This document shows, in pieces, positions 26,962 to 32,695 of a DNA stretch of 40,245 bases. Position numbers and translations under genes: made by a program. The notes beneath the pieces are model-generated. The model searched no databases. It was not told where the DNA came from and saw nothing but the letters and a program-made list of their open reading frames with translations. Positions within the stretch are counted from its first letter, which is position 1, and each line of letters begins with the position of its first letter. Origin of the DNA: Candidatus Parcubacteria bacterium (GTDB lineage: Bacteria > Patescibacteriota > Minisyncoccia > Phycocordibacterales > Phycocordibacteraceae); contig JAKFXG010000030.1 of assembly GCA_021731495.1 (NCBI GenBank), positions 1-40,245 of the forward strand. Reading direction: 5' to 3'.

Positions 26962-28260
26962 ATGGAGCGAACTCATTTAGAGAAGCGTAATCTGCCGGAT
27001 GTGCCGGGTGTGTACCTCTTTAAGCAAGGACGAAAGGTTTTATACGTTGGGAAGGCGACGAGCCTGCGCGACCGTGTGAAGTCGTATTTCGACGACGACC
27101 TGATCGCCACGCGCGGCCCGCGCGTGGTTGATATGGTGACGAAGTCGGACCGGGTCGTATATGAGACGACACCAACGGTGCTCGAGGCACTCGTGCGCGA
27201 GGCAGCGCTCATTAAGAAGTATCGGCCGAGCGCAAACGTCGACGGAAAGGACGACAAGACATTTCTCTATGCGGTTATCACGGAAGAGGACATACCGCGC
27301 GTGCTGATGGTACGCGGGAAAGATATTGATTTTAAAATACTACGCACTCGCACCGGTCAGAACCTGAAGGCCGTGTATGGACCGTTTCCATCTGGCGCGC
27401 AATTACGCGAGGGACTGAGGCTCATCCGACGCATCTTCGCGTTCTTTGATACGCCGAAGCCGGTCGGGACGAAGAGCCCCAGTGAGATAAAAATCAAATC
27501 TCACGGGGTAAATAAACACCAGAACGCGAGAGTTGAGTTTAATCAACAAATTGGCATATACCCGCGTACGTTTAATGAGAAAGAGTATCGCCGCACGATA
27601 CGTCACGTAATGCTTTTTCTCAGCGGGCGCGGAAAAGAATTGCGTACCATGCTTGAGAAAGAAATGCGAAAAGCGGCGAAGGAAGAGCGGTTCGAAGATG
27701 CAGCTGAAGCACGGCGGGAGCTCTTCGCCCTTGATCACATTCAGGATGTCTCGCTTATCAAGGACGAAAGTCTTGAGGAGTCACATCCTGTACAAGGTTC
27801 AACCTTGTACAGGACAACCTTGTACAGGATAGAAGCATACGATACTGCACACCTGTCGGGCACGAACGCCATTGGCGTCATGACGGTTATTGAGGGCGGT
27901 GTACCGACAAAGAGGGATTACCGAACGTTCAACATTCGGGGCGTAAAGAAAAACGATGACATCGCGTCCTTGAAGGAAGTGCTCTCGCGTCGGCTTAGTC
28001 ATCCGGAATGGGCACTACCGAAGGTCATCGTGGTGGATGGAGGAACCACCCATAAAAAGGCTGCAGAGAGCGTTCTCGCCGCGGCGGGTCTCATTGTTCC
28101 AGTTGTTGCTGTGGTAAAAGATGAACGACACCGTCCGCGCGAAGTCATTGGTGCTCGCCGTGCCGGTGTGAGCGAAGCAGACGCGGTGCTTGCCAATAGC
28201 GAAGCGCACCGCTTCTCGCTCGCGTGGCACCGCCGCGCCCGTTCATCGCAGATGCGATAA
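26962..28260 (+). CDS. uvrC: Short UvrC (GIY-YIG, UVR and RNase H-like domains, no C-terminal HhH)
   Basis: GVYLFKQGRKVLYVGKATSLRDRVKSYF; MRKAAKEERFEDAAEARRELFAL; VDGG, VVKDERHRP, EAHRFSLAWHR. Confidence 0.93.
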   Translation: MERTHLEKRNLPDVPGVYLFKQGRKVLYVGKATSLRDRVKSYFDDDLIATRGPRVVDMVTKSDRVVYETTPTVLEALVREAALIKKYRPSANVDGKDDKTFLYAVITEEDIPRVLMVRGKDIDFKILRTRTGQNLKAVYGPFPSGAQLREGLRLIRRIFAFFDTPKPVGTKSPSEIKIKSHGVNKHQNARVEFNQQIGIYPRTFNEKEYRRTIRHVMLFLSGRGKELRTMLEKEMRKAAKEERFEDAAEARRELFALDHIQDVSLIKDESLEESHPVQGSTLYRTTLYRIEAYDTAHLSGTNAIGVMTVIEGGVPTKRDYRTFNIRGVKKNDDIASLKEVLSRRLSHPEWALPKVIVVDGGTTHKKAAESVLAAAGLIVPVVAVVKDERHRPREVIGARRAGVSEADAVLANSEAHRFSLAWHRRARSSQMR

Positions 28261-30661: not shown

Positions 30662-31270
30662 ATGAATTTGAAAGAAACGTACAATCGCATAGCCGAGGAT
30701 TGGCACCGCGACCACTCGCATGATGACTGGTGGATAGAGGGTACCGACACGTTTATAAAAAAGCTTTTACCGAGCGCACATGTTCTTGATGTCGGTTGTG
30801 GTAGCGGCGTGAAGTCGAAATATCTTATCGCGCACGGGCTCAAGGTCACGGGTATCGACATCTCGGATAAACTGCTCGAGATAGCAAGACGCGAGGTGCC
30901 GGCGGGCGAGTTTAAAGTGTTCTCGATGACTAATCTTGACTCGATGCCAGAGACTTTTGATGGGGTTTTTGCACAAGCGTCGCTGCTTCATATTCCGAGA
31001 AAAGATGCGGGTAAGGTGGTAGGCAAAATGGCCGAGCGGGTTGTCCCGGGAGGGCTTCTCTATATCGCGGTAAAAGAAGTACGCACCGATAAGCCGGAGG
31101 AAGGGACTCTTAAGGAAGATGACTATGGGTATACATACGAACGATTCTTCAGTTATTTCACGCAACCGGAGCTGGAGAAATACATGACTGGTGCGGGGAT
31201 GGAAATCGTTTATACAGATCGCCATCAGACGGGTAAAACCGTGTGGCTTCAAATTATCGGGAATAAATGA
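30662..31270 (+). CDS. Class I SAM-dependent methyltransferase
   Basis: VLDVGCGSGVKSKYLIAHGLKVTGIDISDKLLEIAR. Confidence 0.93.
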   Translation: MNLKETYNRIAEDWHRDHSHDDWWIEGTDTFIKKLLPSAHVLDVGCGSGVKSKYLIAHGLKVTGIDISDKLLEIARREVPAGEFKVFSMTNLDSMPETFDGVFAQASLLHIPRKDAGKVVGKMAERVVPGGLLYIAVKEVRTDKPEEGTLKEDDYGYTYERFFSYFTQPELEKYMTGAGMEIVYTDRHQTGKTVWLQIIGNK

Positions 31271-31285
31271 TACTCTGATCTGTAA

Positions 31286-31358
31286 GGGCCCTTAGCTCAT
31301 CTGGTAGAGCGCCTCATTTGCAATGAGGAGGTAAGCGGTTCAAGTCCGCTAGGGTCCA
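31286..31358 (+). tRNA. tRNA-Ala(TGC)
   Basis: GGGCCCT/AGGGTCC acceptor, CCTCA-TTTGCAA-TGAGG anticodon arm, TTCAAGT T loop. Confidence 0.92.
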
Positions 31359-31669
31359 CAAAAGACACAATTAACCTGCCTTGCGGCAGGTTTTGTGCTT
31401 TTGTGGAAGCCGCAGCGATGGTCGGCTAGCAAGCCGACCCGCGAGGCGGGGTCGAGAAATTTTGTTTGTGACGACAAACAAAATATTCGTGACCACAAAT
31501 AACGACAGAAAACCTCCACTGCTGGAGGTTTTCTGCGTTGTGGATGGCGGAGGCATATTTTGCCAGCAGGCAAAATGTCGAGCCGGGGTCGCGGAAATTC
31601 AATTGCATCGGCAATTGAATTATCTGTGACCACAAAACCTGCCTTGCGGCAGGTTTTCTTAATTTGTGG
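31356..31669. repeat. Modular hairpin array downstream of tRNA-Ala
   Basis: At least seven perfect short-loop stems with conserved linkers in about 310 bp (see findings). Confidence 0.85.
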
Positions 31670-31716
31670 ACATTGTGGTACTGTCAGCACGGAAACATAT
31701 CGTTTGGAGGATTGCC

Positions 31717-32004
31717 ATGACCGATTTAAACTCGGCTCCTGTGCCTGAGGAGACCTATACCTTCTACCATCAATGCTTTTGCAAATGGTGTCGCAAAATC
31801 ATAAGTACCCCAATACAGAAGAAGGCGAGCGATATTGCTAGCAATAAGCGAGAGAGCGTTCTCGCCCAAATCAAGCAGGGCGCGAAGTTGCTTTGGCCCT
31901 ACGATCCAACCGAAGAGGAGGCCGCGGAGATTGCCGCCTCTGCCACATGTCCCAACGACCCAGAGCATAAATTGGAATTCATATGGGCTATAGGTGCGGC
32001 GTAA
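31717..32004 (+). CDS. Hypothetical protein with Cys pairs
   Basis: TTTGGAGG RBS; MTDLNSAPVPEETYTFYHQCFCKWCRKI; followed by terminator-like hairpin. Confidence 0.6.
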   Translation: MTDLNSAPVPEETYTFYHQCFCKWCRKIISTPIQKKASDIASNKRESVLAQIKQGAKLLWPYDPTEEEAAEIAASATCPNDPEHKLEFIWAIGAA

Positions 32005-32205
32005 TACCTCGTTTCTCTCAATGCCCTTATGTTCAACTCGCACTTGCCGTCCGATTTTCCGGGCGGCATTTTTCTTTCCCAAACAGGTTCCCGCGCCGCA
32101 CCACAAACGTAGCGATGGTGCGGGCTCACAGAGCATTGGCTTTGCGCTTCCAATTTAAGGAGGTGATACGCGAGCTCGCGAATCTCGGAATCTAGAAGAC
32201 CTTAG

Positions 32206-32658: not shown

Positions 32659-32695
32659 GGGCCCTTAGCTCAGTTGGTAGAGCGCGTCATGAGTA
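32659..32695 (+). pseudogene. Orphan 5' half of a tRNA
   Basis: GGGCCCTTAGCTCAGTTGGTAGAGCGCGTCAT: acceptor 5' strand, D arm and anticodon 5' strand with no matching 3' half. Confidence 0.7.

Follow-up and report, generated by a model that had tools for sequence, protein, structure and literature searches.

Tandem hairpin units behind a tRNA-Ala gene of a Candidatus Parcubacteria bacterium: putative copies of a mobile element with a target-matched arm

Integrative elements of tRNA genes use two positions, the T-loop and the tRNA 3' end; the incoming copy restores the gene end and the displaced copy comes to lie on the right. IS608 inserts 3' of the tetranucleotide TTAC and carries a 4-nt guide 5' of its hairpin base (PMC5934647), and palindromic repeats tagged with CGTC have no dedicated transposase (PMC3733652, PMC8266576).

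In this study, we analyzed a stretch of 40,245 nucleotides (the window), which is contig 6 of a Candidatus Parcubacteria genome of 665,720 bases in 30 contigs (98.7% complete). Behind a tRNA-Ala gene lies an array of hairpins (Table 1) that we take, with somewhat more confidence than doubt, to be two tandem copies of a non-autonomous, strand-specific, single-strand-type mobile hairpin element of Paceibacteria/Parcubacteria. All seven stems listed in the initial annotation were found where it had placed them, with perfect arms and 4-nt loops, and its scaffold of two repeats holds as well: the copies align end to end, the linkers are conserved, and the arms at equivalent positions are changed yet fully re-paired. 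The array is also far more structured than shuffled sequence: its 321 nt have a folding energy of -170.9 kcal/mol, whereas shuffles that keep the dinucleotide composition reach -96.3 +/- 5.4 (z -13.8), and none of 100 shuffles does as well. It holds no coding cassettes.

Table 1. Features of the hairpin array behind tRNA-Ala, in window coordinates
Feature	Position	Strand	Basis
tRNA-Ala(TGC), target gene	31286..31359	+	ARAGORN; Rfam tRNA 66.8 bits
GTCC (GNNC) target tetranucleotide	31354..31357	+	rule from 109 elements, read in sequence
Predicted insertion point	between 31357 and 31358, 2 nt ahead of annotated tRNA 3' end	+	same rule
Left segment 1	31358..31408	+	read in sequence, stem check, insertion rule
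Left segment 1: gene end/flank copy ACAAAAG	31358-31364	+	
Left segment 1: TTGC-loop hairpin	31373-31392	+	
Left segment 1: inverted copy CTTTTGT-GGA	31398-31407; linker base A at 31408	+	
Core 1, 86 nt	31409..31494	+	covariance model R1 104.2 bits; pair counts
Core 1: P1 arm, AGCA loop	hairpin 31420-31439	+	
Core 1: P2 arm, GACG loop, lower stem GGTC/GACC	hairpin 31459-31484	+	
Right copy ACAAA, then unit 2 left segment	31495..31545	+	read in sequence, stem check
Unit 2: left-segment hairpin CAGAAAACCTCCA-CTGC-TGGAGGTTTTCTG	31506-31535	+	
Unit 2: inverted copy GTTGT-GGA	31537-31544; linker base T at 31545	+	
Core 2, 86 nt	31546..31631	+	covariance model R1 99.5 bits
Core 2: P1, AGCA loop; P2, ATCG loop	31557-31576; 31596-31621	+	
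Third gene-end/fold-back segment, without third core	31632..31670	+	read in sequence, stem check
Third segment: ACAAAA; TTGC-loop hairpin; inverted copy TTTGT-GGA	hairpin 31634-31657; inverted copy 31663-31670	+	

The composition of the unit had to be redrawn. The hairpins with AGCA and xxCG loops do belong together, in an 86-nt core, but the three others listed with them are a separate component: they fold back, and their base is a copy of the tRNA end. There are three segments with such fold-back hairpins, each terminating in GGA, the complement of TCC, and two cores. We infer that the array represents two successive insertions stacked behind tRNA-Ala, with insertion repeated at one point as the simplest history. 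The tRNA-proximal unit is probably the younger one, since its inverted copy matches best (CTTTTGT versus ACAAAAG). Elsewhere in the window, tRNA-Ala(CGC) is preceded by a 32-nt fragment (32659-32690) that is 91% identical to the 5' portion of tRNA-Ala.

The core consists of two arms, P1 and P2, joined by the linker GG. P1 is made up of GNC/GNC, an internal loop GSAG/CGA, 2 bp, an AU bulge, 8 bp and a loop AGCA or AGTA, and P2 of GGTCGCGG/CCGTGACC with a nearly invariant G.U pair, a 1x2 internal loop, a stem of roughly 11 bp in which a GA/AG mismatch pair is frequent, and the loop GACG. A short variant of about 62 nt has its loops swapped, with GACG on P1 and AGCA on P2. In 30 homologous cores 92.3% of the pairs are standard and 27 of the 32 pairs are changed on both sides; the covariation score is 0.579 versus 0.180 in shuffles (0 of 500), and slid or shuffled versions are all far worse. 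The initial annotation had suggested either selection on pairing or a mechanism that replaces palindromes. These counts bear out the former, while exchange of palindromes in place is less likely than two insertions of a diverse family. Separate insertions of such a family are the most likely source of the arm differences between the two window repeats, although exchange at the hairpin level may also occur; the tRNA-Cys elements of two genomes (G008 and G019) have common flanks and different P1 arms. With the invariant G.U pair excluded, there are 16 G.T and 3 A.C combinations, which indicates that the tRNA-sense strand is the folding strand.

Several further observations concern the core and its surroundings. 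Short-variant cores lie within truncated tRNA-Glu genes at two loci (L021 and L253), the first of which has an intact tRNA-Glu just downstream. A REP-like hairpin, TACTCCAAGAGTCATTCTGCTGAATGA, is repeated at three loci (L009 166-277 (G000:C28), L023, L014) and is inserted in the P1 arm of one core, and a mini hairpin, GGCGTAATCGCC or AGCGTACTCGCG, stands between the core and the right gene-end copy at five, in several genomes (L026, L036, L047, L106, L126). A kissing interaction between the CTGC and AGCA loops was considered and rejected: three bases are complementary, but by eye there are exceptions without co-variation.

Strong covariation that includes the invariant G.U pair would also be expected of a functional structured RNA that is transcribed downstream of tRNA, topA and efp genes, for example as a trailer RNA, a regulator or a small ribozyme. 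Such an RNA would fold into a three-way junction made of P1, P2 and the outer stem, and pairing with the tRNA end would regulate processing or termination of the gene ahead of it. The element always lies on the sense strand of a transcribed gene, the outer stem is maintained with the right copy, and the large excess of G.T over A.C fits an RNA; the conserved G.U pair and the purine-rich internal loops, which would suit RNA as well, count against the transposon reading. We nevertheless consider this explanation unlikely. Presence is erratic, from 0 to 31 matches per genome with empty orthologous sites, the tRNAs involved differ among species, and there is no Rfam family. A terminator-like hairpin separates tRNA and core in 50 of 113 loci, which makes it less likely that the core has to be transcribed together with the tRNA to fulfil a role.

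The scaffold has homologues well beyond this array, so that the observation withstands the refuting test that the initial annotation had set for it. A first covariance model, built from five cores of the window's genome, matched 11 to 13 places in that genome and, at E <= 0.01, had matches in 31 of 39 relatives, the weak short matches in these per-genome counts possibly including chance hairpins. A model of 30 cores (E <= 1e-6) found the element in 17 of 287 genomes sampled across the phylum. A pattern scan across 84,980 species genomes yielded 65 loci, every one of them titled as Parcubacteria/Paceibacterota lineages, Patescibacteria or unnamed MAGs and including Kaiser-, Nomura-, Taylor-, Zambryski-, Yonath-, Adler-, Lloyd-, Vogel- and Moraniibacteria. 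Other classes of the phylum have genomes in which the layout of the element is unchanged. The viral contigs, phages and plasmids scanned contained no copy, which counts against a mobile element, and a search for a larger autonomous version led to one candidate contig (G022:C1), which has no such element. Rfam reported only tRNA-Ala for positions 31000-32200, the best other model being STnc370 with 33.4 bits (gathering score 54). The family is real and widespread, and it is undescribed as far as the Rfam scan of the array and searches of the open-access literature show.

We collected 168 distinct elements. For 137 of them a tRNA gene on the same strand ends 12-283 nt upstream (median 66), and the tRNA genes that carry elements represent all 20 amino-acid types. 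Among the remaining 31, four are at locus edges and several lie behind intron-containing or degenerate tRNAs. Protein genes serve as well, named here from their C-terminal translations: four elements are found behind topA (L082, L097, L109, L121) and two behind efp (L057, L233), and there are two more topA insertions (G033 and G029). At one locus (L012 about 260-510 (G000:C7)) the tRNA ahead of the element seems, by eye, to be interrupted by a group I-like intron.

Comparison of related sites argues for movement. Within one genus, the tRNA-Cys site is empty in four genomes (G003, G005, G009, G017), in which the tRNA is directly followed by the neighboring gene, and filled in three (G000, G013, G006), in which an element and a second tRNA 3' end precede the same gene. 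In 278 pairs of elements whose cores are similar but whose tRNA types differ, the core has an identity of 0.85, which drops to about 0.25-0.5 immediately beyond its edges and is 0.28 at greater distance, with the G at -4 (0.80) as the exception outside the core. Nearest relatives among the cores are over-represented in two settings, namely at another tRNA of the same genome (13 versus 1.5 expected) and in another genome at the same tRNA (14 versus 4.3 expected). As far as such sequence comparisons can tell, the element behaves as a mobile element. Its mobility and target specificity were missed in the interpretation given by the initial annotation.

The insertion sites follow a simple rule. 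The element stands immediately 3' of GNNC, with G at base -4 in 106 of 109 elements, C at -1 in 98 of 109 and the middle two positions free; once the T-loop TTC sites are set aside, base -4 is G in 44 of 46 sites. Insertion points fall either in the T-loop after GTTC, at a distance of 18 (or 20) nt from where the annotated tRNA ends, or 2 nt from that end. The layout comprises a segment repeating the 3' end of the gene together with a fold-back, an inverted target copy, the core and the displaced gene end, and the gene stays whole, its 3' end being repeated by the segment ahead of the core. The fold-back often has a CTGC loop at its apex (57 hairpins). In 109 of the 168 elements the inverted copy matches the target exactly over 8 nt or more (control 6.5%), and it crosses the insertion point by exactly 3 nt (T'-GNN), followed by one base, mostly a purine.

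The resulting 4-nt linker (GNNN) lies between outer stem and core in 80 of 82 clear cases. Among all elements its most frequent forms are GAAA (59), GAAG (14), GAAT (11) and GCGA (10). In 75 of 93 cases, versus 36 with shuffled targets, since many sites are TTC, nucleotides 1-3 of the linker form the reverse complement of NNC, and nucleotide 4, opposite G, is mostly A or G. Unusual T-loops are tracked by the linker: GTCC in a tRNA-His goes with GGAA, and GTGC in a tRNA-Cys (G006) with GCAG. Because the first 3 nt of the linker are the reverse complement of the 3 nt 5' of the point and are preceded by the inverted gene copy, the inverted copy stops exactly 3 nt past the point. Where the left and right gene-end copies differ, it pairs with the right copy only in 35 cases and with the left only in 13. 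P1 and P2 are thus enclosed in a three-way junction, which the inverted copy closes together with the right gene end. At one tRNA-Cys (L164, G029) the slot is taken by a structured insert of another kind, in the order inverted copy GGGAATCGAAG, insert, right copy GATTCCCGCC, which suggests that further core families obey the same target rule.

The protein-gene sites allow the two gene-end copies to be compared at codon level. At three sites in topA, 8-16 of 57 nt distinguish the left copy from the right, mainly at synonymous positions, with 1-2 nonsynonymous codons versus 6.0-10.6 expected from random change. So few amino-acid changes imply that both copies have been under selection and that the left copy did not derive from the right one. 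The left copy arrived either with an element carrying the gene end or with a filled donor allele by homologous recombination, and the data fit both. At the topA gene of G033 the two gene-end copies are nearly identical over about 60 nt, and this insertion is a recent event.

A foreign left topA copy, duplication of the gene 3' end and sites located at the T-loop or 3' end are also what a miniature integrative element would leave if a tyrosine recombinase (Xer or a plasmid or phage integrase) inserted it at the T-loop or gene 3' end and the element's own copy restored the gene end, as in genomic islands or folded attC/CTX attP sites. Most genomes do hold a single tyrosine recombinase. We regard this explanation as improbable, because a single recombinase using a fixed core site accounts neither for the use of 20 tRNA types and protein genes nor for the target-matched arms, the insert has no integrase gene, and the counts are unlinked: one genome (G024) has five integrases and no element, and by eye the number of tyrosine recombinases shows no relation to the number of elements. 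That the hairpins are independent terminators or ordinary palindromes without common origin or shared linkers can be dismissed with near certainty and is refuted for the core, since core, linkers, internal loops and loops are homologous across the phylum and the inverted target copy and the right gene-end copy would go unexplained; for single fold-back hairpins, which are terminator-like at the 50 loci mentioned above, a terminator function is possible.

Under our preferred reading, a mobile hairpin element of single-strand type, the unit would move as single-stranded DNA in the manner of IS200/IS605. P1 would serve as the left palindrome and P2 as the right one, the GNNR tetranucleotide at the P1 base would be the guide for GNNC, and the final four nucleotides of the element (GACC) would pair with GGTC at the P2 base. 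A HUH-type or other recombinase, acting in trans, would then join the unit to the 3' side of GNNC. The ends of IS200/IS605 elements have the same layout of a retained tetranucleotide, a complementary guide, a paired second palindrome and a single folded strand, from which we infer a single-strand HUH-like or equivalent trans reaction. The inverted target copy may be formed by fold-back copying during insertion, by which the family would re-adapt to each new tRNA. We put forward only tentatively that the element rebuilds its target-recognition arm at every insertion, writing an inverted copy of the new target, extended 3 nt past the cut, beside its core. Such a mechanism would act through single-stranded DNA or through RNA. 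To our knowledge, templated self-retargeting insertion of this kind is a mechanism of no known transposon, and we know of no inverted target copy in IS200/IS605 elements.

Several candidates for the enzyme were considered. Y1_Tnp is present in 22 of 31 element-bearing genomes and in 1 of 8 without elements (Fisher p 0.0045, relatedness not corrected). No core was found at the 12 loci of Y1 genes searched, a Y1 gene of G000 has its own, unrelated palindrome, and G032 (12 matches, 100% complete) has no Y1 candidate. Y1/RAYT was therefore rejected as dedicated transposase, with only a weak association in presence, no linkage and absence from copy-rich genomes. Reverse transcriptases (as in a retroelement, retron or group II intron derivative) were rejected too, occurring in 13 of 31 genomes with elements versus 4 of 8 without and not in G000, G020 or G032. 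Group I/II introns and known self-cleaving ribozymes were considered for the junction-spanning inverted copy by analogy with an internal guide, but none of their known core motifs turned up. In the window's genome, a palindrome, AATACAAGGTGGAACCTTGTATT, read as VQGSTLYQ, is found inside and around the RAYT-like Y1 gene (L275 1278-2040), and a similar peptide stretch lies inside a uvrC-like ORF of the window (26962-28260, fragment ESHPVQGSTLYRTTLYRIEAYD). These are members of an in-gene palindromic repeat family, which probably belongs to the Y1 transposase.

The mobile DNA of Patescibacteria is poorly known, and a large part of the phylum carries this unlisted family of mobile hairpins. One simple sequence rule accounts for where its members sit, in tRNA genes of 20 types and in two protein genes. 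If the inverted copy is indeed made at insertion, the element would re-programme its own target by copying, a principle relevant to genome engineering, and one 86-nt hairpin pair could colonize every tRNA gene without a fixed recognition sequence. Annotation changes as well: the family has left its footprints in many apparent palindromes or terminators behind tRNA genes of these bacteria, and in the duplicated ends of tRNA genes or topA.

Among the systems most like it are IS200/IS605 elements such as IS608 and their non-autonomous relatives, which share two imperfect palindromes near the ends, one folding strand, a tetranucleotide retained in the left flank with insertion 3' of it, and a complementary 4-nt guide at the hairpin base (PMC5934647, PMC8266576). 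Unlike them, our element has no tnpA in it or nearby, its target is GNNC with a matched guide instead of one fixed tetranucleotide, the guide extends into an inverted copy of the downstream target, and it carries a gene end and prefers tRNA genes. REP/REPIN sequences with RAYT and CGTC-tagged palindromes are likewise short, non-coding, imperfect palindromes, often paired, in subfamilies with alternative complementary stem residues, G.T pairs and a tetranucleotide at the hairpin base (PMC3733652, PMC8266576). The present element differs in lacking the GTAG tag, in not flanking Y1/RAYT genes and in its place behind tRNA genes with a duplicated gene end. Mitochondrial double-hairpin and repetitive hairpin elements are also small, consist of one or more hairpins and are thought to be mobile with no known enzyme; in those of sponges the helices are conserved and the loops vary, whereas in Patescibacteria the loops and internal loops are conserved and the arms vary (PMC2800124). 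The Patescibacteria element is, in addition, bacterial, targeted to gene ends and equipped with a target-matched arm. With the integrative elements of tRNA genes it shares both positions and the gene 3' end duplicated at the two ends of the insert, but it has an 86-nt non-coding core, no integrase in its short insert, all tRNA types as hosts and an inverted target copy. Unlike integron attC sites, successive cores, 10-386 nt apart, have no gene cassettes between them. The architecture is thus related to that of known palindromic mobile elements, while the target rule is new to us.
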